Source of the DNA: an uncultured Saprospiraceae bacterium
GTDB taxonomy: Bacteria > Bacteroidota > Bacteroidia > Chitinophagales > Saprospiraceae
DNA length: 64,000 nt
NCBI GenBank assembly: GCA_937997635.1
Contig: CALLFA010000027.1
Location: forward strand, 1-64,000
Reading direction: 5' to 3'
Made by a program: the position numbers and the translations under genes. Positions 7,432 to 19,091 of this stretch are shown one piece after another. The first letter of the stretch is position 1. Every line of letters starts with the position of its first letter. The notes beneath the pieces were generated by a model. The model saw nothing but the letters and a program-made list of their open reading frames with translations, had not been told where the DNA came from and made no database searches.

Positions 7432-7896
7432 TTATTTTGCAATAACCCTTCCATCCAATTCTACTTCTGCAGTTTTCATAACAGAAAGCTTGTTAAAATC
7501 TTTATGAAAAGGATTGACTAGTATATTGGACTCTTGTGCAAGTACAGCAGATGGGACTCTCAAGGCTAAGGATTGTTGAGACAGTAGCCAATCAGAACCA
7601 AGATCTACAGTCTGTTGAGCATATTGACTGACTCTCCAATCAACAGATAGATTGCCCATATCTCCTAGATCTAAGATTGACTTATCGGGTATTTGTATTT
7701 TGATGTATCCAAAACGGTGGTCTATCTTTTTCCGAAATTGATTGGCTAATATTTCCAGCACAGCTAAAGATAAATGAGCAGATGTGTATAACATTTGTAG
7801 TCCTTCCCTATTCCATCTGCCTCCATATAATTTAGCTCCAAATCCAGACAGATCATTCAAGTATTTCTTTTTGGCAATACGGTAAACTTCCATCAA
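7432..7896 (-). CDS. RES-domain toxin (NAD+-degrading type)
   Basis: A 154-residue RES domain. The conserved Arg in GGRWN (about residue 27), the Glu in LAVLE (about 48) and the Ser in RVPSAV match the Arg-Glu-Ser signature that names the family. Characterised RES toxins (MbcT type) phosphorolyse or hydrolyse NAD+, stopping growth. The start overlaps the stop of the upstream antitoxin by 4 bp (ATGA), the usual translational coupling of these modules, with antitoxin first. The gene ends 105 bp from the convergent peptidase gene. Confidence 0.9.
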   Translation of the reverse strand: MMEVYRIAKKKYLNDLSGFGAKLYGGRWNREGLQMLYTSAHLSLAVLEILANQFRKKIDHRFGYIKIQIPDKSILDLGDMGNLSVDWRVSQYAQQTVDLGSDWLLSQQSLALRVPSAVLAQESNILVNPFHKDFNKLSVMKTAEVELDGRVIAK

Positions 7897-8390
7897 TAAA
7901 CACCATGCTCAATCCTACCAAGAATCTTGATCAAAATACGTGTACCAAACGTAGTGTCCATCAAATCAATAGGCTTCTTATAGTCTAGAGAGCTAATCGG
8001 TCCATGCAACCACTCTTCCAACTCTTGCTCATCATCCTCAAAAACTTCTAGGCCTTTGCGAACGACCTCCGCAATAGATAAAATCTGCTCCGACACATGT
8101 ACACTAAGGTGATCTGTAGGTAACTTGCGCTGTATAGTGCGATGCGATATGTGCAACAATGCGCTCATCCTCTCCATGCTAACACCCAACTTCTTTGCTA
8201 AAGTGTCTAAACTCTTCTTGGGCAGTCCAACTCTCGTGACATCAACTAAATCCATCTCACTATTAATGTCTTTCTTGAGCGCCTTCTTACCACCTATAAT
8301 AGCAACCAATTGAGAATATTTAGTCTGCTGTGTTTCGTAACTTAGAGCAGCTTCTTGAAGTGATGCATTAGGCAAATTAGAATCGTACAT
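7893..8390 (-). CDS. Xre/MbcA/ParS-type antitoxin with DUF2384 domain
   Basis: A 165-residue partner of the RES toxin. The middle carries a helix-turn-helix-like segment (LDTLAKKLGVSMERMSALL, then HRTIQRK). The C-terminus is the MbcA/ParS toxin-binding domain (about residues 100-165) with the typical acidic helix and GTRILIKILGRIEHG ending. Antitoxins of this family occlude the RES active site and usually repress their own operon. Repeated TGTCA boxes overlap the promoter just upstream, consistent with autoregulation (inference). Confidence 0.9.
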   Translation of the reverse strand: MYDSNLPNASLQEAALSYETQQTKYSQLVAIIGGKKALKKDINSEMDLVDVTRVGLPKKSLDTLAKKLGVSMERMSALLHISHRTIQRKLPTDHLSVHVSEQILSIAEVVRKGLEVFEDDEQELEEWLHGPISSLDYKKPIDLMDTTFGTRILIKILGRIEHGVY

Positions 8391-8394
8391 AACG

Positions 8395-8437
8395 TGTCAT
8401 TTGTCACAAATATAATGAAATATGTCACATAGGTCAA
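8395..8437 (-). promoter_or_regulatory. Promoter and putative operator of the Xre-RES operon
   Basis: On the minus strand, TTG (8437-8435), a 20-nt spacer, then TATATTTG (8414-8407), a full match to TAnnTTTG. The predicted start is ~10 nt before the antitoxin ATG. On the plus strand TGTCA occurs at 8395, 8402 and 8423, spaced 7 and 21 bp, so the boxes flank and overlap the core promoter. This is a good candidate for antitoxin binding. Confidence 0.65.
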
Positions 8438-8444
8438 GTTTTTA

Positions 8445-8481
8445 CATAAAAAAACTGCACCTAATTGCTCAGGTGCAGTTT
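8445..8481 (-). terminator. Rho-independent terminator of the giant exoprotein gene
   Basis: A perfect 11-bp stem (arms 8452-8462 and 8471-8481; AAACTGCACCT) with an 8-nt loop. Read on the minus strand it is followed by a run of seven T. It lies ~120 bp past the stop of the leftward gene ending at 8601 and insulates the toxin-antitoxin operon. Confidence 0.8.
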
Positions 8482-8498
8482 ACAAATGTCAATTATTA

Positions 8499-8593
8499 TA
8501 CCCAACGGATTTGATTGTGACCTATTAAATATGCAACGCAGATATTAATAAAATGGGCAGTAGTAAATCTGTCACAATCAAGTGCGCTGGGTA
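8499..8593. repeat. 95-bp long-inverted-repeat element (MITE-like?)
   Basis: The arms at 8499-8521 and 8571-8593 are inverted repeats of 23 bp with four mismatches. Both outer ends read TACCCA and the inner ends TTGATTGTGAC. The 49-bp centre has no ORF. The element lies between the giant exoprotein stop and its terminator. It could be a miniature inverted-repeat element or simply a long RNA hairpin; no second copy was noticed in the window. Confidence 0.55.
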
Positions 8594-8600
8594 CAACTAA

Positions 8601-11600
8601 CTAGTCTATCACGACTATAGGCTTTACTTCAATGTTATCACCAGTTTGTAATTGATAATAATAAACCCCACTTTCTGGGAATATTCGCTTTTGTACAGGG
8701 ATTGTATTTACTCCTTCATTGAAGTCATAAGTTTCTGTAATGACTTCATTTCCTGTGGCATCATATAGTGTAAACTGATATGCTGCAGTCGTCGAGCTAA
8801 CAACTTCAATCGAAGAATTATCGACAATTGGATTAGCCAAAACTTGACTCGTAAATCCTTCAAGCACACGATTATTATCAAGCACTAACTCTCTTGTCTC
8901 CAAGGCATTACTGACATATACTTCATTAGACATGAGTTCGTCAGACAAATAGATTGCTTTTGAAACATTTACATTTTCTTCAGCAACAAAGCTCATGGTG
9001 TAGCTAATGTTTCCATTAATCGCAAATCCATCATACCAATTTAGCTTAGTCTGATTATTTTCTGTCCTGTAACTTTCATCGTCAATATCAATGACATCAG
9101 AACGTATTTCTGTCAACTCCAATCCTTGGTGTTTAATTCCCATTTGGAAACCATAGACATCAAACGATTCTTTCATTTCAATTTTGACGTCAATAGATTC
9201 TCCTTTTTGAACAACTTCTTTGTCGGCACTGATAGTCACGTCCTCTTCAGTTTTTAATTCTGATGAGCCTGATTGTGCATTTGCTACGACATCTCCACTA
9301 ACATCACCTATTTTTATGCCGATAAAATTTTCAGTCATGGCATCTTCATTGAGAGTCAGCAAACTTAGTTCTGACTTGTATGGCCATGGATTAAGTGTAT
9401 CAACAAAGTTTTGATTCTCAACAGCAAACACCCAACTATCGTCAACCATCACATCATTAGGTACTGTCCCTAAAACTCTCTGACGTAGTACAACAAGGTC
9501 ACTACCAGTCACTGATTGGCTACCATTCACATCAGACGCAATAACATGGTGAGGATTTGTAAAATGATTAATCCCTAGTATATGTCTTTGTATTAATAAT
9601 AAATCCAGCGTACTAACTCCATTATTGTATGTGTCTTCTTTTTTAGCAGTAATACTATAATCCAAGCCAACAGGGTTCGAAGAAAAAGCATAGCTACCAT
9701 CAATATTATTTATCTTGGATTTTGGATATTCTGGCAAATTCGCCACAATTGACATTTCTGTAAAATCTACAAACTCACCATCCGTCGTCTGGACTTGACC
9801 TGCAATTTGCAGACCTGAACCGCCAGCACATTCACCAGCAACAAATAACACAACACCTCGCTTCATTGCTTCACAAGCATTGGAGTAAGTCATGTTGTCG
9901 CATCCACATACAGGGTCACTGTTTGTTGCACATGTTATGTTGTCATTGATAATGCTTTCATCTATACAAGATTGATCCGCATTTTCTGGACAATTTCTGC
10001 CGTTATCGGAAATAAAAATACCAACAGTACAAAAGTCTCTATTGCCTTGACCATCCCAAACGTAAACATCCAACTCTGCAAAATTCATCAAAGAACTACA
10101 TTCAAATAAAATCGAACTTTGGCCTTCGAATCCTTCTTGCCCTATTTCAATTGGATCATCACCAGACAGAACGATTGAGAACGATAAGTCTTCATCCGAA
10201 GAACAATTATCAAAACTTCCGACATTAAAATCCGAAGCCCATACGGAGACTGTGCCGTCTTCAGTAGTAAACGCAGTCGTCAATCCAGCCAAGCATAAAG
10301 GCGTAGGTGCAACAAGATCAACATAACTGATCGATGTCTCATCTGATGCAGAATTACCGCAACCATCATCAACAATCCACACCAACCGATCGCTGTCAGC
10401 AGTCGTCCCATTAATGATTACTTCCGCTTCAGTTCCTGTTCGGGCAAACACATCTACTAATTGTGCATTTTTATACCATTCGATTGTCCATGATAATTGG
10501 TCACCATTTAATTCTTGGGAACCACAGAAATCTGATGCAACCGCCACAACTGCTGCCTCTCCTAAACAAGGAGTGTCGTCATCTTTAGCTGCTGCACCTC
10601 CTGTTGTATTCACTTCTATTTCATCATCTACTACAATTGTAGGTGCCGTATTATCCTGTACTTTTATAATTTGGCTGTATGAATAGTAGCCATCAATAAA
10701 CACTTGCAGATAAGAAAAGTATACAGGATCAGGGTGCAATGCTGATTCAGGGCAACTGGCACAAACACCTTGAGCCCAATCTTCTACAGCTATAAACAAA
10801 TCAGTATCATCGGATTCACTTGCTTCATTGTTTGGATCAAAGGTACACCAATCAACTACTGACCATCTGTTAACAATCGTCAAACAAGCATCTGATGTCG
10901 CAATGGTATCCTGTTCTAGACTATATCCGACTAGTCCGCAACTTGTTTCACACCAAACAGGTTTGATGTCTTCTATTGTAAATTCAGGAATACACTCTAC
11001 TGGGTCGCCCATAGCTACAGGATGGTCCACAAAGATTTTAGCTTCATTGTCATCATTACATTCGATGTTCAAACCGTCTTCGATTTGGCCATTCATGTGT
11101 TTGGGCCATTTGATTGTATACGGGTCAAAGCCACCTTCTGCAGAAATAGTGATTTCTTGTTGACAGAACGCATCACCTGGAGAAAGATCCCCAGAACCAT
11201 CGTTATCTATAAACCATTCTTTGATGACTGTTTCATTACCACATGTTCCTGCCAAATCTTCTACAGATGCAATTTCCAATTCGTATTCCCCAAAACATGC
11301 TTGACCTACAATAGTAGGCGGTGCCGCCGTATTTGGATCTTCATCACAATCGATGGTCACATCTTCACATAGCAATGTTGGTGTAGAATTATCAGTCACA
11401 AAGACATCTATCATACATTGATTCTGATTGCCATTTTGATCTGTTGCTAACAAAATAACTTGAACAACTTGACCACCATCTTGACAGCAGAATTGAACAT
11501 AGTCACCATAGTCATCTGCTTCAGGTACAACACCTTCTTCTACGCAGACACCAAATTTATCTCTCGTCAAACAGATCGTTTCGCCACCAGCACACTCGTC

Positions 11601-13562
11601 ACCACAACATCCTTCCATACGTGCAACTTGAAAAGTGACATCTCCACAACCTGAGTCATGACTACCAGCGTCGAAAGTCTCTGCAAATACCTTTGCAATT
11701 CCAGATTCTGGTGTTGACTGAGCGAAAGTTAAGGATACAGAAAGTGAACTTTTGCAAACCATAACTGGAGGTATATTGTCCACAACAGCTATTCCAAATG
11801 TTGTTTCACTTGTATTCCCACACTCATCAGTTACTAATGCAATCACATCGATAGGTCCCTGATTTTGAGACATTCCCAATAAATAACCATCGGCAAAAAT
11901 CCCATGGCTCGGTCTCCATTCTACTTCTACTGAAGAAGAACAATTATCTTCATAGACAAGATCTGGCAATTCGTATGTCGCCGTACATTGCCAAGGATCA
12001 ATAGATACAATGACATCATCTGGTCTCTCCACTACGGGAGCTGTTTGATCACTAATCTCAATTTGTTGTGTACCACCTAATTGCACTTGTGAATCACACC
12101 AATCCAGCATTGTCCAAGTCCGAATTATTTTTGTACCACCAGCACAAGCTGTAAATTCTAAATCAGAAAACGTTGTCAAGACATTACAGAACATTTCTCC
12201 TGGAATAACTGGGACTCTTGGATTAGAAAAGCCAGGTCCGATCACAGTATCAAGCTCGATAGAGTCTCTTAGAATCTTATCGACTACGGTGATGATCACC
12301 CAAACATTTTCTAAAGTTCCATCTCCATCTAAATCCAAAGGTGTTTGGACCATAGTATCTCTAGTACCAACAACTTCCTCAAAGTGGATGATGTTTTCAA
12401 TTATATTAGTGTCAGGCACAAATGTATGTTCATCTACATAAGTAGGATATGCTAGTGCTGGATTTCCAGTTGCCTCTGCGATATACGCTGGACTTCCTAG
12501 TTCGAAAGTATCATCCAATGTCAACTCACAATCTAGAACTACTGGTTCTGGAAATTCAATTTGAGCAATTCCATTAGGGCTTAGGTCTATTTTTTCTTCT
12601 CTGTATGCTTGTGTCAATAAAACTGCATTCTGAGTAACGCCATGTAAGGTAATGTTAGCCGTATAGCTAATCACATGCAACACGCCCTCTTCGTCACAAA
12701 TATTACCTGTCGTTTGACGAATAACTTTTACATCGCCAACGAGAGACGCACCACAACTTTCATCTATAATAGTCATCGCTTGTTCTGGCGTTAAGAATAT
12801 TTCAGGGAAACTTCCACCACACCAACTGACACATCCGACATTACAATTTGGTACTGCTGCCTCAATGAATATATCTCCAGAAGCCTGACTTACAATCGAA
12901 CTAAACTCGACAGTATAATCACCTACAGTAGGTAAAGCAATCACATCGCTAAATGCTCCAGGTAAGAAGACAGTTGAATACACGGCTACGCCAGCAGCAT
13001 CTCGCACGATCACTTCAATATCGGATGATGACCAAATAGGGTTACCAGGACTACCCGAATTGTAATTAACACTGGAGTTTCCTATGAGATTGATTACCTT
13101 TTGACATTCGTCAGTTGCGGTAATTTCTAGGACTCCTGATGAATTGGACGACGACAATCTACCTTCGTATGAATCAGCATCACCAGCAATAAACTGGCAA
13201 GGAGATTCTAATACTGGTAGTACATTCGCTTCTAAATCGATTGTACCCCAACAAGTATTGCCATCACACGAGCTTCTTACTTGATATTGTAAAGTGGTAT
13301 TTACTTGAGCTGCAGAAACTGCATTTCCAATAAAATCCCCATTCTCATCAAAGAGAGAAATTTCGTAGTCGTAGTCAATATTGGGGGCTTCAAGAACCAT
13401 ATCTGGTTCTATCTCAAAATCGCAATTGACGCCCAAACTAATTTGAACGGAATTGTTGCAAACGAGTGCGCCACAATTTTGAGCGGACAACGTTTTAAGC
13501 GATGATACTGAGATAAAAATGAGCAATAAGAGACACTTAGTAAAAGACTTAATCTTATACAT
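8601..13562 (-). CDS. Giant T9SS-secreted multidomain protein (HYR-like repeats, Kazal, dockerin- and cohesin-like domains)
   Basis: 1653 residues. It has a Sec signal peptide ending near LSAQ. Cys-rich HYR-like beta-sandwich repeats span roughly residues 480-1190, recognisable by repeated 'D.TAPxV', 'CSS', 'DxCGN' and 'VxVxDN' patterns. A Kazal-type segment lies at ~1197-1245 (PVCGCDNMTYSNACEA, closing GEC). A dockerin-like pair follows at ~1300-1375 (LDLLLIQRHILG; DVNGSQSVTGSDLVVLRQ), then a cohesin-like domain at ~1440-1560. The last ~75 residues are a T9SS type A sorting domain. Such proteins are exported across the outer membrane and anchored or released. It is last in a leftward cluster after DUF4956, HlyD-like and TolC-like genes, though a 200-bp gap and a hairpin may separate its transcription. 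Confidence 0.88.
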   Translation of the reverse strand: MYKIKSFTKCLLLLIFISVSSLKTLSAQNCGALVCNNSVQISLGVNCDFEIEPDMVLEAPNIDYDYEISLFDENGDFIGNAVSAAQVNTTLQYQVRSSCDGNTCWGTIDLEANVLPVLESPCQFIAGDADSYEGRLSSSNSSGVLEITATDECQKVINLIGNSSVNYNSGSPGNPIWSSSDIEVIVRDAAGVAVYSTVFLPGAFSDVIALPTVGDYTVEFSSIVSQASGDIFIEAAVPNCNVGCVSWCGGSFPEIFLTPEQAMTIIDESCGASLVGDVKVIRQTTGNICDEEGVLHVISYTANITLHGVTQNAVLLTQAYREEKIDLSPNGIAQIEFPEPVVLDCELTLDDTFELGSPAYIAEATGNPALAYPTYVDEHTFVPDTNIIENIIHFEEVVGTRDTMVQTPLDLDGDGTLENVWVIITVVDKILRDSIELDTVIGPGFSNPRVPVIPGEMFCNVLTTFSDLEFTACAGGTKIIRTWTMLDWCDSQVQLGGTQQIEISDQTAPVVERPDDVIVSIDPWQCTATYELPDLVYEDNCSSSVEVEWRPSHGIFADGYLLGMSQNQGPIDVIALVTDECGNTSETTFGIAVVDNIPPVMVCKSSLSVSLTFAQSTPESGIAKVFAETFDAGSHDSGCGDVTFQVARMEGCCGDECAGGETICLTRDKFGVCVEEGVVPEADDYGDYVQFCCQDGGQVVQVILLATDQNGNQNQCMIDVFVTDNSTPTLLCEDVTIDCDEDPNTAAPPTIVGQACFGEYELEIASVEDLAGTCGNETVIKEWFIDNDGSGDLSPGDAFCQQEITISAEGGFDPYTIKWPKHMNGQIEDGLNIECNDDNEAKIFVDHPVAMGDPVECIPEFTIEDIKPVWCETSCGLVGYSLEQDTIATSDACLTIVNRWSVVDWCTFDPNNEASESDDTDLFIAVEDWAQGVCASCPESALHPDPVYFSYLQVFIDGYYSYSQIIKVQDNTAPTIVVDDEIEVNTTGGAAAKDDDTPCLGEAAVVAVASDFCGSQELNGDQLSWTIEWYKNAQLVDVFARTGTEAEVIINGTTADSDRLVWIVDDGCGNSASDETSISYVDLVAPTPLCLAGLTTAFTTEDGTVSVWASDFNVGSFDNCSSDEDLSFSIVLSGDDPIEIGQEGFEGQSSILFECSSLMNFAELDVYVWDGQGNRDFCTVGIFISDNGRNCPENADQSCIDESIINDNITCATNSDPVCGCDNMTYSNACEAMKRGVVLFVAGECAGGSGLQIAGQVQTTDGEFVDFTEMSIVANLPEYPKSKINNIDGSYAFSSNPVGLDYSITAKKEDTYNNGVSTLDLLLIQRHILGINHFTNPHHVIASDVNGSQSVTGSDLVVLRQRVLGTVPNDVMVDDSWVFAVENQNFVDTLNPWPYKSELSLLTLNEDAMTENFIGIKIGDVSGDVVANAQSGSSELKTEEDVTISADKEVVQKGESIDVKIEMKESFDVYGFQMGIKHQGLELTEIRSDVIDIDDESYRTENNQTKLNWYDGFAINGNISYTMSFVAEENVNVSKAIYLSDELMSNEVYVSNALETRELVLDNNRVLEGFTSQVLANPIVDNSSIEVVSSTTAAYQFTLYDATGNEVITETYDFNEGVNTIPVQKRIFPESGVYYYQLQTGDNIEVKPIVVID

Positions 13563-13595
13563 ACTGTTTTGGTTATTTTGTAAAATTCGGTTATC

Positions 13596-13623
13596 AAAAC
13601 TTACGCTTCGAGGTGTAAGTTTT
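13596..13623 (-). terminator. Hairpin between the TolC-like gene and the giant exoprotein gene
   Basis: Perfect 9-bp stem AAAACTTAC / GTAAGTTTT (13596-13604 and 13615-13623). On the minus strand the 3' arm ends in four T. It may terminate the gene ending at 13764 or act as an attenuator in the 5' leader of the giant gene starting at 13562. A second, weaker hairpin (AGACAGT/ACTGTCT, 13717-13745) precedes it. Confidence 0.4.
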
Positions 13624-13763
13624 TTGAAATGACGATACGAGAAAAGACATTCCCCTAAAGCAAGTATATCGAATAGTAAAAAATAAAGCTGATTGTCGTT
13701 CTTATATGTAGTAGCAGACAGTTTATATGTGTAATAGACTGTCTTTTAATGCTTTAGAGTGGT

Positions 13764-15026
13764 CTAATTTGAGCTCAATAAGTAGTTTTTCAGTGGCATT
13801 TGAGTCATTAACAGACTGTCTTCAAGAAAATCTAAGTATTCTTCATACACATCTTTTGCTGAATTGATCTTGTCAATTTCCAATTCAATACTCTGTTGAT
13901 TAAGCTCTAAAATAAAGGTGGGATTTGAGCTATTTGTTTCATTCAAAATCTGTTTGAGTTCCCTATTAGACTCCTTCATCGCTTCTCTCAATGATAACTG
14001 TTCTTCATAAACTCTTATGCTTTCCAGCACTTCGAAGCGTGACCGACTTACGTCTAAAAACAATTTATCTTGATCAAATAAGGCCTCCGTTTCCAAGTTG
14101 TCCATTTCAATTTTAAGCTCTTGCAAATCTAAACGATTACCGCCATCCCAAGGCAATCGCAAGCCAACACCAACAGATACCTTTTCTCTGAAAGGATCAC
14201 TATGAGGTCCACCATAGGATATTTCGGCAAATCTCAATATCTGTTTTGCCTCAGCTTCTTCAAGATCAAGTTCATTTTGCAACTCCGTTCTTTTTAGATT
14301 ATCGCTAACAAGTCTATTTGGATCTTCTACAGATGAAGGATCAAATGCTGTAACAAAGGCTTTTATTTCTTCGACTGATATCAAATCTTCGAAAGTATAC
14401 TCCACTCCACTTAGGCTAGATGGGAAAGCATACATTTTATTTTCTTGCTGATTTTGCAATTGATTTAGGTTTAAATCTTTGAGGTCATTTTGGGCTTTTA
14501 CAAAATCAGAGAAATCTGCATCACCTATAATCAGTTGCTTTTTAATGACACTCATCTTGTCATCTAAAACCGTTTTCTGCTCCTCAAGCAAGTCTTGGAG
14601 TTCAAATGAAAAGTATTCATCTATCCAGTACTCATAGGCATCTTCTATAAATCGAAGCTCTAAAGAAAATGGGTCATCTTTAGGTTGGGACAGGTATCCT
14701 TCAAATAGTCGTTGCTGTGCTTCTCTTATCGCCTTAGTAGTCGGACTTACACGAATCAAATAATCTTGCTTATCCAGATCAAAATCATTGGTCTCCGTCC
14801 TAAACTCGTATTCTTCAATAATGGGAGCCTTAAAAGTGTATTCTCCAGATTGATTCGTTGAAGAAGACAATCTTGTATCGACATCTTCGAATATGACCTG
14901 TAAGAATTCACCTGTGTTGACTGTATTCGATTGCCCAAATAAGGAAATAGAAACAACAGTGAATACGAGGATGTAAATGCTATTTATCAAGTTTGGAAGC
15001 TTGCTCGACGTCTGAAGACTGTACAT
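13764..15026 (-). CDS. TolC-like outer-membrane efflux protein
   Basis: 420 residues with a signal peptide (cleavage near SLFGQ). The body is mostly long amphipathic helices. The segment VSVGVGLRLPWDGGNRLDLQ is the strand-turn typical of TolC-family beta-strands, followed by a long coiled helix (LETEALFDQDKLFLDVSRSR) and a second helical hairpin. TolC proteins form outer-membrane/periplasmic channels. The first ~200 residues are diverged and lack an obvious first TolC repeat, so the fold call is moderate. Its 5' end overlaps the upstream HlyD-like gene by 47 bp, which indicates co-translation. Confidence 0.72.
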   Translation of the reverse strand: MYSLQTSSKLPNLINSIYILVFTVVSISLFGQSNTVNTGEFLQVIFEDVDTRLSSSTNQSGEYTFKAPIIEEYEFRTETNDFDLDKQDYLIRVSPTTKAIREAQQRLFEGYLSQPKDDPFSLELRFIEDAYEYWIDEYFSFELQDLLEEQKTVLDDKMSVIKKQLIIGDADFSDFVKAQNDLKDLNLNQLQNQQENKMYAFPSSLSGVEYTFEDLISVEEIKAFVTAFDPSSVEDPNRLVSDNLKRTELQNELDLEEAEAKQILRFAEISYGGPHSDPFREKVSVGVGLRLPWDGGNRLDLQELKIEMDNLETEALFDQDKLFLDVSRSRFEVLESIRVYEEQLSLREAMKESNRELKQILNETNSSNPTFILELNQQSIELEIDKINSAKDVYEEYLDFLEDSLLMTQMPLKNYLLSSN

Positions 15027-16071
15027 TTATCATGCTTTTAGAGATGTGTTCCAAAATGACTTTTTCACCTTGTAAGAATAAATTATCTTCTGGTAATTGG
15101 ATATTTATTTCCTGCCCCCAAGCGGTAACCGAAGGGTCTCGACTGAATCTAGCGTCTATTGGTGTATATCTAGATTCTTGTCCCGTCAATTTCCCTTTGT
15201 AGCTCAGGTTTTTATTTTTATTTGCTGATTTAATGATAAATTCATCATCCACGGACATACTGGTTACGAGATCCTCTTGGACATAACCCAGAACAAAAGT
15301 TGGATTCAGATCATAAATACTCAATAGTGAATTGAATGCTGGTATATGCTCACCTAATTTGCAATGAATGTTACCCACTCTTCCATCTTGAGGCGCTAAA
15401 ATTGACTCACTGATAACTTTAGTATCATCATAGAATTTCTTTTCAGCTGCTAATCTTGCGACTTGCTTACTGTACGGGTTTCTACCTGCTGTCAAAGCCC
15501 CGTTAGCATCAGCCAGACGTTGATCAAAGGATTGCTGCAACAACAATTTCTCGTTCTCAATAGCTTCAATTCTATCTTCTATATGTTTGAAATCTGCATC
15601 TTCCACTCCAACAGAACTCAATCCATCAAACAAGGATTTTCGTTGCTCCAATTGAGTATTCAACTCATCCTTTTTTGCATCTAATTGAGCTAACTCTATT
15701 TCTTTCTGGCTTTCAAGATCTCTAATTTTTGCGTTTTGTGTTTGAGTCCACGCTTGTTCTTCTGCCCTCAATTCGTCAATTCTTAAATCCTGCTCCATTA
15801 GTTTTTCTTCTTCTCTGATTCTGGAAATGTCAAGCAATTTTTGCCCTTTCTTGACTAACTCTCCAGGCAACACGTATATGTGATTGACATATAAATCAAA
15901 GTTTTTATTTACCTCAGTCTCTTTATTCTGAGCAACACCATAAAATGAATTGACTCGCTGATCAAATACGGTGGTCATGAACCATAGGACTATTCCTACA
16001 GCAAAAACAATGAAATAAAATGTATTGAACTTGGTCATAATATCTCTATAACGATCTTGGTGCTTTTTCAA
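14980..16071 (-). CDS. HlyD-family periplasmic adaptor (membrane fusion protein)
   Basis: 363 residues: one N-terminal membrane anchor (about 15-35), a biotinyl-lipoyl half near 60-85 (VLPGELVKKGQKLLDISRI), a long coiled-coil hairpin (~90-215), the second lipoyl half (APQDGRVGNIHCKLGEHIP) and a beta-barrel tail. This is the HlyD/EmrA layout that bridges an inner-membrane transporter to a TolC channel. No ABC, MFS or RND pump is encoded nearby. The upstream partner is a DUF4956 membrane protein overlapping by 26 bp (unless the second Met at 16038 is the start), and the downstream one is TolC-like. Confidence 0.82.
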   Translation of the reverse strand: MKKHQDRYRDIMTKFNTFYFIVFAVGIVLWFMTTVFDQRVNSFYGVAQNKETEVNKNFDLYVNHIYVLPGELVKKGQKLLDISRIREEEKLMEQDLRIDELRAEEQAWTQTQNAKIRDLESQKEIELAQLDAKKDELNTQLEQRKSLFDGLSSVGVEDADFKHIEDRIEAIENEKLLLQQSFDQRLADANGALTAGRNPYSKQVARLAAEKKFYDDTKVISESILAPQDGRVGNIHCKLGEHIPAFNSLLSIYDLNPTFVLGYVQEDLVTSMSVDDEFIIKSANKNKNLSYKGKLTGQESRYTPIDARFSRDPSVTAWGQEINIQLPEDNLFLQGEKVILEHISKSMINVQSSDVEQASKLDK

Positions 16072-16786
16072 ATTTTAACCGCACATCGTGGATTCCCAAT
16101 ATGTTCCTTGTGGAGGATGTAAAATCCGCAATATTTGCATCCTTTCTTAGTCTAATTAAATAATTCAACTCTATCAACTCTTCTCTTATAAGAGATGTAG
16201 AAATAATTTCACCTGTTTCATTCTTTATTTCGTTTACCTTCATCGGTAAGAATCTCATTTCTTGTAAGTCAAAATCCTTACAGAAGTTTCTCAAGGTCCC
16301 TTCAATTTCAGTTCTTAGGTCATTTTGCATCGGATACTGGAGTCTCAAAACGCCAATTAACTCATTAGATCCACTCAGCGGTGACCATCGTAATACAAAC
16401 GCAGCCAAACAAAATATGAGTGTACCAGTCAAGGCAATTGAAAAGCCAAAAACACCACATGAAATACCTACAGCAAGCGAAGCAAACATGAATGTCATAT
16501 TCCGAGGATCATTCAAATTAGTTCTAAATCGAATGATCGCTAGTGCTCCTAACATACCCATTCCACGACCTATACTGTCTCCTATTGCTTGCATAACCAT
16601 AGCTGCTACCATTGATATTAAACACAATGCTTGTAGGAAATGAGCTCTTCTATAGGTTGTTCGAGTTGTCAAGTCATAAGTAATTGCCAGTATACTAGAC
16701 ATAAAAAACGCAAATAACACGGTAAACAATACCATGTAAAACGCCGGATTATTGGGACTTTCTTGAAGTATATTAAGATCTATCAT
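16046..16786 (-). CDS. DUF4956 polytopic membrane protein
   Basis: 246 residues. Four to five hydrophobic helices fill the first ~140 residues, including the conserved DUF4956 stretch GRGMGMLGALAIIRFRTNL and DPRNMTFMFASLAVG. A cytoplasmic C-terminal domain of ~100 residues follows. The function is unknown; in other bacteria DUF4956 genes often sit beside VTC-type polyphosphate polymerase and CotH genes. Here the partners are HlyD- and TolC-like proteins instead, so it may form the inner-membrane part of an export or envelope complex (inference). First gene of the leftward cluster. Confidence 0.85.
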   Translation of the reverse strand: MIDLNILQESPNNPAFYMVLFTVLFAFFMSSILAITYDLTTRTTYRRAHFLQALCLISMVAAMVMQAIGDSIGRGMGMLGALAIIRFRTNLNDPRNMTFMFASLAVGISCGVFGFSIALTGTLIFCLAAFVLRWSPLSGSNELIGVLRLQYPMQNDLRTEIEGTLRNFCKDFDLQEMRFLPMKVNEIKNETGEIISTSLIREELIELNYLIRLRKDANIADFTSSTRNILGIHDVRLKFEKAPRSL

Positions 16787-16933: not shown

Positions 16934-17293
16934 TTAATTCCTCATTAAAGCTATTGCCTCAATTTCAATTTTGCAGCCATAATGTAACTCTGAAACCGGA
17001 ATTATTGATCGCGTAGGTTTATGATCTCCAAAAAATTGATAGTAAATTTCATTGACAGCTGCCCAATCATCCCCATTTGAGATAAATACAGTTGTCTTGA
17101 CAATATCCTTTCGACTTAAACCATATTCACCAACAATTTCTTCAATTTTAGTTAACACAAATAAACATTGTTCTTCTATAGAATTTGGTGTTTCTTTTGT
17201 TTCTCTATTTATAATCGGCAGTACTCCTGATGTGAATACCAAAGATCCAGCTTTTATTGATGGAGAATAATGGCCTGCCCGTGGTTTACTCAT
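16934..17293 (-). CDS. ridA: RidA family enamine/imine deaminase
   Basis: 119 residues, the full length of the RidA (YjgF/UK114) family. It has the N-terminal FTSGVLPI strand, the substrate-binding Arg in KPTRSIIPV, and the C-terminal KIEIEAIAL strand. RidA hydrolyses reactive 2-aminoacrylate and related enamines released by PLP-dependent dehydratases. It follows such a dehydratase (17306-18247) with a 12-nt gap, which supports a detoxifying role for that enzyme's product. Confidence 0.9.
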   Translation of the reverse strand: MSKPRAGHYSPSIKAGSLVFTSGVLPIINRETKETPNSIEEQCLFVLTKIEEIVGEYGLSRKDIVKTTVFISNGDDWAAVNEIYYQFFGDHKPTRSIIPVSELHYGCKIEIEAIALMRN

Positions 17294-17305
17294 AATTTTG
17301 ATGAT

Positions 17306-18247
17306 TTAGAAGGGTAAATTACTTAAATCTACATTACCACCAGTGATGATCAGACCAACTTTCTTTTCTTTAAACACTTCTGGATTTGCAATTACAGCTG
17401 CAAGGGTTGTAGCACTTGATGGCTCAATGACGAGTTTCATCCTATTCCACACAAGAGCCATCGCTTCGATGATGGCTTTTTCGCTCACAAGGAGAATTTG
17501 GTCAATGCCGTCCTTAATGATCGGAAAGTTATGATGACCAAGCTGCGTCCTCAGTCCATCCGCGATAGTAATTGGATTTACTGACGGTACAATCTGGCCT
17601 TCTTTCAAAGATCGGTAGGCATCATCTGCCTGTTCTGGTTCAGCCCCAATCACTTTTGTATTTGGCGAATGTTGCTGACAAGCTAAAATAGTACCCGCAG
17701 CTACTCCTCCTCCACCTACTGGTGCAACGATATAATCAAGATCAGGATGCGTTACTATTAACTCATAGGCGCACGTCCCTTGACCCACAATAACATCTAT
17801 ATCATTTGAAGGGTGCAACTTGGAAGCCCCAGTTCTTTCAATTATTTCTGCCAATGTTTCTTCTCTGGCTTGTAGTGTAGGTTCACATTCTTCGACAATT
17901 GCCCCATAACCAAGAGTTGCTGCACGCTTAACGGCAGGAGCATTTGAAGGCATAACAACATAAGCTTTTGTATTCGTCAATTTAGCAGAAATAGCCACGG
18001 CTTGCGCAAAGTTACCAGACGAGTGAGTGCCAAGTCCTTTCGAGCGTTGATTTTCTGTCAAACAAAGACTTGCGTGTAATGCCCCACGTATTTTGTAGGA
18101 TCCACCTTTTTGAAAGTTCTCACACTTAAAAAACAAACTGGCGCCTGTATGGTCATTGATAAAACTTGACGTTATGACCGCTGTTTGATGGATGTGACTG
18201 TGTATTCTATCGTAGGCTTCTTTAACGCTAAGATTTTGCATATTCAA
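17306..18247 (-). CDS. Threonine/serine dehydratase-like PLP enzyme
   Basis: 313 residues, fold type II PLP enzyme. The Schiff-base Lys lies in GGSYKIRGA (about residue 52), the phosphate-binding loop in VGGGGVAAG (~175), and the C-terminal cofactor contact in ITGGN. There is no C-terminal ACT regulatory domain, so it resembles catabolic threonine/serine ammonia-lyases or serine racemases rather than biosynthetic IlvA. Its start overlaps the asparaginase-domain gene by about 20 bp and RidA follows closely, so all three form one operon. Exact substrate is uncertain. Confidence 0.85.
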   Translation of the reverse strand: MNMQNLSVKEAYDRIHSHIHQTAVITSSFINDHTGASLFFKCENFQKGGSYKIRGALHASLCLTENQRSKGLGTHSSGNFAQAVAISAKLTNTKAYVVMPSNAPAVKRAATLGYGAIVEECEPTLQAREETLAEIIERTGASKLHPSNDIDVIVGQGTCAYELIVTHPDLDYIVAPVGGGGVAAGTILACQQHSPNTKVIGAEPEQADDAYRSLKEGQIVPSVNPITIADGLRTQLGHHNFPIIKDGIDQILLVSEKAIIEAMALVWNRMKLVIEPSSATTLAAVIANPEVFKEKKVGLIITGGNVDLSNLPF

Positions 18248-18728
18248 AAATACCAGTTTCCGTGTTTCTTACGGCTTCTTTGGCAGGTATAATTTCCCCA
18301 TTCATGCAAATAAAAACGCCAGATTCTTTTAATCTACACGTTGCTATGGCTGCTCCCAACTGAGCTGAAGCGTCACTACCATGACAACTAGCTGGAATAA
18401 ACGAACCAGTAAGTACAATAAGTTTGTCAACGATGTGTGATAAAAGCAGGCCAGTCTGGATCATTGTATCTGTACCATGAGTGATAATGAAGCGCGAGCA
18501 TGCTGAATTGGATATGTGATTATACAATTGAGTTCTATCCTCGTCTGTCAGATCTTGACTGTCCTTTTTTGCGATAGAAATGGTATTCACCGCATAAGGT
18601 AATTTCATTTGCTTTACGAACTCTATTGCTGCAGAAGCACCAATTTCAAAGGCATATGCACCTTGCTTCACAGGATAGTGTTTGTCTATCGTGCCACCCA
18701 TCTGTATGAATTCAATTTCAGGAATCAT
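18228..18728 (-). CDS. Short asparaginase-domain protein
   Basis: I start it at the ATG at 18728 (MIPEIEFIQMGGTIDK). An upstream frame to 18776 adds a hydrophobic but unconvincing lead. The ~166 residues correspond only to the N-terminal domain of type I/II asparaginases. Both nucleophile loops are present (GGTIDK with the first Thr; THGTDTM with the second Thr and Asp), and a GSFIPA strand follows. The C-terminal domain that completes the active site in the usual ~330-residue enzyme is absent. Stand-alone N-terminal-domain versions are annotated in other Bacteroidota, so this is probably not a truncation. It heads the operon with the PLP dehydratase and RidA. Confidence 0.82.
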   Translation of the reverse strand: MIPEIEFIQMGGTIDKHYPVKQGAYAFEIGASAAIEFVKQMKLPYAVNTISIAKKDSQDLTDEDRTQLYNHISNSACSRFIITHGTDTMIQTGLLLSHIVDKLIVLTGSFIPASCHGSDASAQLGAAIATCRLKESGVFICMNGEIIPAKEAVRNTETGIFEYAKS

Positions 18729-19091
18729 GAATTTATTTATTAAAAGTAAGATGAGCAGAGCACTGCACCTCAGCATTCATCAACTGCAATTAGTCTTTAT
18801 GACTGAATCTAAGTTCTTCAAATCTCTCGATTTATTTTAAGATTACAATTATACCAAAATGAAAATAGTTTGACCGTTTCTTATTTGATCTTTTATCTGT
18901 TCTCATCATTGAAAATACTCGTGAATACCCGCATTCACTGCGTTTTTTGTCTTGACAACAAACAAGCTGCTGTGTAATAAATCAGTAAAAACAATCTCCT
19001 TTTGGATTATTTGACGTGGATTAAGTTATGAATAATGTTAGACACTGGCAATGGATAAAATTTGTGTTATTTTTGTACCAAAATATTCATT
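18729..19091. other. 363-bp divergent intergenic region
   Basis: No convincing ORF or RNA gene. It must hold the promoter of the leftward asparaginase operon, for which no -7 box stands out, and it carries the -7 box of the rightward DUF6580 gene near its right end. A small hairpin (CGCA/TGCG followed by six T) at ~18937-18955 is the only other structure noticed. Confidence 0.5.
19068..19075 (+). promoter_or_regulatory. -7 box for the DUF6580 gene
   Basis: TATTTTTG matches TAnnTTTG exactly and predicts a transcription start ~10 nt before ATG 19092. It overlaps the upstream in-frame TTG at 19062, which argues against that start. No good TTG is present at the expected -33 distance. Confidence 0.45.

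Follow-up and report, generated by a model that had tools for sequence, protein, structure and literature searches.

The window, a 64,000-nt stretch of contig CALLFA010000027.1 from an uncultured Saprospiraceae bacterium, contains four tandem open reading frames on the minus strand, encoding a DUF4956 protein, a HlyD-type adaptor, a TolC-type channel and, last, a giant surface protein (Table 1). This arrangement, proposed in an initial annotation, was borne out by the reading frames and by Pfam and structure matches. The DUF4956 protein matched its Pfam family well above the cut-off (E 1.6e-18; 67.4 bits, cut-off 30.6). The adaptor matched HlyD_3 (E 1.1e-5; 26.6 bits, cut-off 22.2), and a profile of 19 orthologues recovered membrane-fusion, HlyD, EmrA and MacA chains from the PDB (best E 1.5e-12). 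The channel scored just below the Pfam OEP cut-off (21.7 bits, cut-off 22); its AlphaFold2 model (mean pLDDT 89.8) gave 42 Foldseek matches in the PDB at E≤0.001, of which the best was E. coli TolC (9.2e-12). By title nearly all of these were TolC-type channels; the rest, from P. aeruginosa, are labelled simply 'membrane protein'.

Table 1. Features of the locus, listed in order of transcription.
Feature	Position	Strand	Basis and remarks
DUF4956 protein, 246 aa	16046..16786	-	Pfam PF16316; proposed inner-membrane part
HlyD-type periplasmic adaptor, 352 aa from ATG 16038	14980..16038	-	HlyD_3; ORF opens at TTG 16071
TolC-type outer-membrane channel, 420 aa	13764..15026	-	OEP and AlphaFold2/Foldseek; N-terminal signal sequence (by eye)
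8-bp inverted repeat between the TolC and giant genes	13597..13622	-	By eye; short T run follows; candidate terminator between the two genes
T9SS-sorted surface protein, 1653 aa	8601..13562	-	TIGR04183; neighbour outside the conserved unit
Terminator-like hairpin, 13 pairs, after the giant gene	8452..8481	-	Terminator scan; longest stem

Reading frames had been described as overlapping through the first three genes. This holds for HlyD and TolC, which overlap by 47 bp (47 and 53 bp in L094 and L095, relatives from the same genus), and not for DUF4956 and HlyD, since the DUF4956 stop lies 7 bp upstream of the HlyD ATG and an overlap arises only with the TTG-started frame. Terminator-like sites numbered 5 against 4.9 expected by shuffling, the hairpin after the giant gene having the longest stem. 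The inverted repeat ahead of the giant gene has a loop of 10, above the limit of that scan. The promoter scan gave 33 sites against 31.4 expected and was uninformative.

The AlphaFold2 model of the DUF4956 protein (pLDDT 80.3, pTM 0.68) comprises five longer predicted helices and a C-terminal alpha/beta, ACT-like domain. No ATPase or transporter signature was found in the protein, and the Foldseek matches shown for the model were to ACT, ribosomal and other alpha/beta proteins, with no transporters. In an alignment of 137 rows Arg88 was invariant and Arg86 was present in 95%. Kinship with MgtC proteins, which are regulators, was considered and proved weak: PF02308 scored 15.5 bits (cut-off 31.4), PRK15385 gave E 5.8e-5, far under its cut-off, and comparison with E. 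coli YhiD gave an hhalign probability of 8.7, in the C-terminal domain only.

A survey of DUF4956-HlyD-TolC trios, as the initial annotation had suggested, showed the trio to be conserved. Among 80 named loci collected with a DUF4956 query, 72, from six phyla, had the full trio, and on ORF maps 71 of these 72 kept the order DUF4956-HlyD-TolC on one strand. Two of the eight incomplete loci (L137 and L148) are separations; in the others (L124, L136, L145, L152, L155 and L157) the sequence runs out 0-2.3 kb downstream, with HlyD present in L136 and L157. A 558-aa DUF4956 frame in genome G077 (L031), considered as a fusion, was unconvincing, the long stop-free frames there overlapping one another. 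With match cut-offs set at the score gap, trio-type DUF4956 and HlyD were found together in 117 of 298 Saprospiraceae genomes, DUF4956 alone in 4, HlyD alone in 5 and neither in 172; HlyD lay within 500 bp of 122 of the 134 DUF4956 loci. Because DUF4956 and HlyD co-occur in these genomes, the arrangement of the locus is not a product of chance. DUF4956, HlyD and TolC are a co-inherited unit. Unlinked DUF4956, a case raised in the initial annotation, occurs in part: in most of the cases examined, genomes with a separated trio-type protein keep a HlyD gene elsewhere (G266, G382 and G453, where both genes are present on separate contigs, and the genome of L152), but in the genome of L137 no HlyD partner was found (best match 3.9e-5), and DUF4956 classes A and B are not linked to HlyD or TolC.

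It is generally assumed that an adaptor-channel pair depends on a pump of the ABC, MFS or RND type. No gene for such a pump was found in the window cluster or, on ORF maps, between the parts in any of the 72 complete loci, so the interposed pump envisaged in the initial annotation was not seen. The trio is conserved yet contains no pump gene, so its anatomy is best read as DUF4956 occupying the position of the pump. To this extent the original proposal stands, and the refuting conditions named with it went largely its way; that DUF4956 itself transports anything is conjecture. Alternatively, HlyD and TolC could be served by an ordinary pump encoded elsewhere, with DUF4956 as an accompanying regulator. 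The likeness of the adaptor to EmrA-type adaptors (TIGR00998, E 1.3e-11, well below the cut-off of that model), the weak PRK15385 similarity of DUF4956 and the ABC-type genes found near, though outside, some trios (L048, L063, L070 and some Fibrobacter loci) favor this explanation. We nevertheless consider it quite unlikely, given the lack of a pump gene between the parts and the near perfect co-occurrence of DUF4956 and HlyD.

The fourth gene encodes a surface protein, as annotated, with a C-terminal type A T9SS sorting domain (30.4 bits, cut-off 23). In Pfam it has a dockerin match above cut-off and Kazal matches, the better of which (Kazal_2) is 0.4 bits under its cut-off. One role suggested for the four genes was an envelope scaffold by which this protein is assembled or anchored. 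In the window and in L035/L095 the giant gene comes directly after the trio, on the same strand and about 190-200 bp past TolC, and T9SS-tailed genes are enriched near trios generally (39/493 near genes, 7/503 far genes). However, outside this genus the mapped loci gave just one instance of the giant near a trio, a partial match upstream of the L064 trio; L094 has two opposite-strand genes between trio and giant; and paralogues (E below 1e-50) are encoded at more than 20 loci elsewhere in this genome. Such a scaffold is therefore very improbable, and these observations argue equally against the giant as cargo or client of the trio and led to its rejection as a conserved member. It is best read as an incidental neighbour.

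The genes that do recur beside the trio are often for polyphosphate synthesis or secreted kinase-like proteins. CotH-kinase or lamin-tail genes accounted for 51 of 493 near genes and 0 of 503 far genes and were present at 43 of 95 loci, with a CotH gene in the cluster at 25 of 95 related loci. A VTC polyphosphate polymerase gene was in the cluster in all 18 complete loci outside Bacteroidota and Balneolota. The link of DUF4956 to VTC and CotH genes, mentioned in the initial annotation, is thus real. The first CotH profile came to match T9SS tails and lamin-tail domains as well and was replaced by domain-only profiles; these missed the Pfam-detected CotH domains of L134 and L141, and the seed for the recount includes both. 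By Pfam and domain profiles there is no CotH gene beside the window trio, and the trio genome G313 had no CotH match at 1e-10.

No linked VTC gene was found in the sequence examined for Bacteroidota and Balneolota trios. The window cluster has none, and the single VTC match of its genome lies, as does a second DUF4956 gene, on contig C201. Across the 298 Saprospiraceae genomes VTC was present in 65 of 121 with the trio and in 94 of the 177 without it (odds ratio 1.02, p 1.0), a negative result for dependence of the trio on VTC in this family; it was absent from 39 of 77 trio genomes judged near-complete by eye. An alignment of 20 VTC proteins contained residues invariant throughout, and one VTC protein compared with the PDB gave no match. 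PPK1, a polyphosphate-making enzyme unrelated to VTC, was considered as a substitute. It was found near the trio at 2 of 95 loci (against far genes p 0.24, not significant): operon-like in L125, 12 bp after TolC, and more loosely associated in L143 (= L065). Among the matches listed for the L065 PPK1 in the 298 genomes, only the G079 locus lay beside DUF4956, positions being compared by eye.

In the DUF4956 tree, the window protein and the other trio proteins formed a clade of 98 rows (support 100/100), to which class D, encoded next to VTC, was sister (99/87). A HlyD-like gene was present in four of the five class D loci; the adaptors of these four (L037, L057, L061 and L043), taken together, aligned with trio HlyD at an hhalign probability of 92.6. 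For L037, L057 and L061 this was the sole match, Pfam giving none at 0.01, and no adaptor was seen in L052, which the tree places in class D. The best reading is that the trio derives from DUF4956-VTC-CotH cassettes. The CotH-cluster proteins of class B (15 ORFs, none of which has a T9SS tail in the profile search) seem to be anchored in the inner membrane, with neither HlyD nor TolC close by, whereas most trio-linked CotH proteins have export-type N-termini by eye, a difference amounting in effect to one or two evolutionary contrasts.

Taken together, these data point to the trio as an undescribed export system. We tentatively propose, at somewhat less than an even chance, a trans-envelope conduit in which DUF4956 replaces the pump and through which polyphosphate or some other phosphoryl compound reaches CotH proteins at the surface. 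DUF4956 would sit in the inner membrane with its ACT-like domain in the cytoplasm, and HlyD would bridge it to TolC. The cargo, an anionic phosphate polymer or some other phosphoryl compound, would be synthesised in the cytoplasm, ancestrally by VTC and perhaps by PPK1 where VTC is absent, and then pass outward; at the surface, CotH and lamin-tail proteins, either T9SS-sorted or lipoproteins, may act on or use it. The conserved trio, the 117-genome co-occurrence, the constant VTC gene outside Bacteroidota and Balneolota, the CotH/lamin-tail enrichment, the sister position of class D, the difference in CotH anchoring and invariant Arg88 favor this conduit; independence from VTC in Saprospiraceae, scarce PPK1, G313, ABC-type genes near some trios, the lack of an ATPase or transporter signature and a VTC-gene mutant without reported defect (see below) count against it. 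The narrower version, a dedicated polyphosphate exporter in which the VTC or PPK1 product is threaded through DUF4956, HlyD and TolC to the cell surface and supplies secreted CotH kinases with a phosphoryl donor or building material, is unlikely.

A trans-envelope system with DUF4956 as inner-membrane gate or regulator might instead carry cargo that is not phosphate-based, such as an exopolysaccharide, peptide or lipid, which we regard as a real, if rather doubtful, possibility. It would fit the independence from VTC across the 298 genomes. In the accessible portions of the reports on Gram-positive Pel loci (PMC7112168, PMC12345266), the DUF4956-VTC-CotH cassette lies alongside polysaccharide genes, and Pel amount and aggregation change when the MgtC/ACT-type membrane gene or the CotH gene is deleted; unlike these two, the VTC-gene mutant (SIR_1593) has no reported defect there (PMC12345266). 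On the other hand, CotH/lamin-tail and VTC genes are the only neighbours directly flanking the trio in more than five loci, though most other neighbours are unannotated and may include a polysaccharide gene, and two unrelated polyphosphate-making enzymes, VTC (18 loci) and PPK1 (two), occur near trios.

If the proposed conduit is correct, a small DUF4956 protein standing in for the pump in several phyla would amount to a tripartite conduit of a new class, and a widespread domain of unknown function would gain a concrete role. Were the cargo polyphosphate, it would provide a route for extracellular polyphosphate in two-membrane bacteria; the phosphate-donor supply of secreted CotH kinases would become testable, and the exporter would answer how an extracellular bacterial kinase obtains its phosphate donor.

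In the eukaryotic VTC complex, a polyphosphate polymerase is coupled to passage of its product across the membrane; its membrane part is not known to be a DUF4956 protein, and a similar coupling in the trio is putative. The Pel-linked cassettes share the DUF4956, VTC and CotH families, with a secreted CotH, with the trio loci of other phyla; HlyD and TolC are not described in the accessible parts of those papers, and the trio adds candidates for spanning the periplasm and outer membrane (PMC7112168, PMC12345266). The cassette membrane protein, as described in the portion available, combines an MgtC-like part with an ACT domain (PMC12345266), as does the DUF4956 model here. A CotH protein is also present in the twisted-stalk sfz system, in the available main text of which HlyD, TolC and VTC are not named (PMC8250860). 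A literature search of limited scope found no published description of the DUF4956-HlyD-TolC trio. With the tripartite exporters (type I secretion HlyBD-TolC, EmrAB-TolC, MacAB-TolC and RND systems) the trio shares an adaptor and a channel of recognisably the same families; those exporters have their own ABC, MFS or RND pump, whereas the trio has none and a 246-aa DUF4956 protein occupies that position in the gene order.

The window lies in a 5.36-Mb genome of 252 contigs (contig C27) and encodes a DUF4956 protein, a HlyD-type adaptor and a TolC-type channel (the trio), beside a giant T9SS protein. By predicted fold the channel is plainly TolC-like, despite its sub-threshold OEP score. The initial annotation described overlapping frames across the first three genes; the HlyD and TolC ORFs do overlap, by 47 bp, but DUF4956 and HlyD are separated by 7 bp if HlyD starts at its ATG. 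In its predicted structure DUF4956 has a C-terminal alpha/beta domain in addition to five longer helices, and fold comparison ranked an ACT domain first (E 5.2e-4); the fold matches listed were ACT, ribosomal and other alpha/beta proteins, with no transporter among them. A toxin-antitoxin pair lies just downstream of the giant gene. Upstream of DUF4956, a RidA family gene is followed by a serine/threonine dehydratase-like gene and then an asparaginase-like ORF (both by eye); the RidA and dehydratase-like genes also lie upstream at L035, L094 and L095.

Positions of features in the window and at related loci (L numbers)
Feature	Location	Positions	Strand	Support
DUF4956	window	16046-16786	minus	Pfam, NCBIfam
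HlyD	window	14980-16038, counted from ATG	minus	Pfam, NCBIfam
TolC-type channel	window	13764-15026	minus	predicted fold; OEP 0.3 bits under cut-off
Giant T9SS protein, 1653 aa	window	8601-13562	minus	T9SS tail, Pfam and NCBIfam
RES-domain toxin, Xre/MbcA/ParS antitoxin	window	7432-8390		Pfam: RES E 8e-24; Xre-like HTH E 5.5e-13
RidA family gene, dehydratase-like gene, asparaginase-like ORF	window	16934-18776	minus	Pfam (RidA); by eye (the other two)
Giant paralogue	C27	92109-96557		
Intervening gene	L144	11792-12748		weak phytase-like match
Second HlyD	L151, Fibrobacter	7863-8852		
HlyD, 589 aa	L171, Halobacteriovorax	10694-12463		
PPK1	L125, uncultured Saprospiraceae MAG	13058-15157		

DUF4956 (PF16316) was present in 97 of 198 genomes of the order, and 60 loci, a selection from the matches listed, were mapped. 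In class A, the polyphosphate polymerase VTC precedes DUF4956, followed in many loci by a DUF2490-cluster gene. Class B comprises DUF4956, sometimes a CYTH gene, a gene of the CotH (CotH-kinase-type exoprotein) cluster and usually VTC, checked against Pfam at L034 only, which is the second DUF4956 locus of the window's genome (contig C201). Class D has VTC-DUF4956, with a HlyD-like gene ahead at L037, L043, L057 and L061 but not L052; at L043 TolC follows. Class C, DUF4956-HlyD-TolC, was found at 19 loci in 18 genomes, the window included, all among the mapped loci within the window's own family.

A profile (A1) built from the 19 class C DUF4956 proteins was run on named genome contigs; of 569 confirmed relatives, the 80 top matches made up the set analyzed. 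All three genes were present at 72 of these 80 loci, 71 of them in the order DUF4956-HlyD-TolC on one strand (L166 is rearranged), and complete trios occurred in Bacteroidota, Balneolota, Fibrobacterota, Thermodesulfobacteriota, Bdellovibrionota and Delongbacteria. Incomplete loci L124, L136, L145, L152, L155 and L157 have only 0-2.3 kb of downstream sequence, which at L136 and L157 does include HlyD. L137 and L148 are separations: trio-type HlyD, adjoined by TolC, lies elsewhere in the L148 genome (E 1.6e-94), and the top HlyD match in the L137 genome reaches only E 3.9e-5. Since trio-type HlyD also lies elsewhere in the L152 genome (E 1.3e-99), that locus is probably a separation too.

Among 298 Saprospiraceae genomes, class C DUF4956 was found in 121 (134 loci) and trio-type HlyD in 122 (135 loci). 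With the cut-off for DUF4956 set at the gap in scores below E 1e-55 and that for HlyD at 1e-60, 117 genomes held both, four DUF4956 only, five HlyD only and 172 neither (Fisher p 7e-71, genomes counted as independent and kinship ignored). In G348, one of the HlyD-only genomes, HlyD adjoins a fragment of DUF4956 located at a contig end. HlyD lies within 500 bp of class C DUF4956 at 122 of the 134 loci and at 502 bp in G196; a CotH-type gene separates them in G123, G143 and G167 (L060, L056 and L062; Pfam check at L056), and they are on different contigs in G266, G382 and G453. G382 is the L148 genome (identical HlyD position and score) and was counted once. The trio is a real, conserved trans-envelope gene set, its mechanism and cargo being inferred; it is undescribed as far as searched, the partial texts consulted on DUF4956 holding no description of it.

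As the initial annotation had claimed, ORF maps (ORFs of at least 80 aa) showed no pump gene inside the trio. Extra genes between its parts occur only at L144 (between HlyD and TolC), L158 (known from the ORF map only) and rearranged L166. Opposite-strand ORFs that masked TolC at five Fibrobacter loci were pruning artefacts, TolC being found there on re-search. ABC-type genes, mostly named by eye, lie near but outside the trio at L048 and L063 (both on the other strand) and at L070 (downstream, same strand), and near some Fibrobacter trios with a second HlyD. This second HlyD lies a few kb past the trio-VTC cluster at L151, L169, L170 and L173, followed at L151 and L170 by two membrane-protein genes, ABC-2-like by eye. 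The long HlyD of L171 has a C-terminal stretch weakly like DUF6929/phytase-like families; HlyD is also long at L157 and L166.

The giant protein, proposed initially as part of the system, is a neighbour and not a conserved member: its ORF directly follows TolC only in the window and L035/L095, and 25 other loci of the window's genome, counted by hand, encode relatives (E below 1e-50). Paralogues lie on C27, C45, C66 and C158, for example, and two of the whole family in this genome are in open frames of >5000 aa. At L094 two opposite-strand genes separate TolC and the giant ORF. A partial relative upstream of the L064 trio (929 aa, ended by the contig edge) is weak evidence because the family is so large. 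In the window, the gap between the TolC and giant genes contains an 8-bp inverted repeat, seen by eye.

Exoprotein, VTC and PPK1 genes were compared at 95 loci (four repeats dropped), using homemade profiles seeded from Pfam-confirmed proteins, between 493 genes within three genes of the trio and 503 farther genes. CotH accounted for 28 near versus 0 farther genes, CotH or lamin-tail for 51 versus 0, VTC for 15 versus 0 (18 loci once ORF pruning was lifted), T9SS tails for 39 versus 7 and PPK1, an unrelated polyphosphate-making enzyme, for 2 versus 0. Genome-wide, CotH was present in 120/121 trio genomes and 154/177 other Saprospiraceae genomes. The 28 trio-linked CotH proteins have mostly export-type N-termini, by eye, and 12 have a T9SS tail by profile. 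Of the class B CotH-cluster ORFs, 15 at 14 loci, none has such a tail and 14 have a strongly hydrophobic, anchor-like stretch at the N-terminus; trio-HlyD and TolC profiles had no match in class A and B loci. This distribution, with the N-termini and tails, suggests that HlyD/TolC accompany CotH that is exported further, very few independent evolutionary events lying behind the pattern.

In a midpoint-rooted tree of 137 DUF4956 rows, with long branches flagged by the program, classes A, B and D each occupy one side of a branch, and all trio rows form a single clade of 98 (support 100/100) with class D as sister (99/87). VTC is within the cluster at 18 of the 72 complete loci (14 Fibrobacterota, two Desulfobacteraceae, one Delongbacteria, one Halobacteriovorax), which are all those outside Bacteroidota and Balneolota, and at none of the 54 from these two phyla within the sequence covered. 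Because class A, most of class B, class D and these 18 loci are VTC-linked, loss of linked VTC in the Bacteroidota branch would be the simplest history.

Our best explanation, held tentatively, is a trans-envelope conduit with DUF4956 in the pump's place and polyphosphate or another phosphoryl compound as cargo. That the trio is a dedicated polyphosphate exporter, the polymer being made by VTC or PPK1 and supplied to surface CotH kinases, seems unlikely. VTC is equally frequent with and without the trio in Saprospiraceae (65/121 versus 94/177 genomes), so that a window-type trio does not need it. PPK1 was present in 21/21 trio genomes tested (the window's genome and 20 picked for being without VTC), and polyphosphate could therefore be made there; its tie to the trio is limited to L125 and L143, and the reading without VTC leaves the energy source of export unaccounted for. 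At L125 PPK1 begins 12 bp past the trio TolC gene.

Related gene sets appear in the literature, cited here from partial texts. VTC and CotH genes share a Clostridium perfringens locus (PMC2879425), a Bacteroides DUF4956 gene is listed together with a DUF2490 gene (PMC10434189), and a CotH, polyphosphate polymerase and DUF4956 set adjoins Gram-positive pel genes (PMC7112168). Deletion of CotH or of an MgtC/ACT-type membrane protein gene lowered aggregation and changed Pel amount (PMC12345266); from these last two papers combined, we read this membrane protein, SIR_1592, as a DUF4956 protein. In this Gram-positive cassette the polyphosphate-polymerase mutant had no reported defect, both neighbour mutants being defective (PMC12345266), and this result, with the ABC genes near some trios, lessens confidence in both the conduit and polyphosphate as its cargo. 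The three-gene arrangement was reported, in the text available, as not found outside the Pel locus (PMC12345266); the related arrangements described here occur far outside Pel loci.
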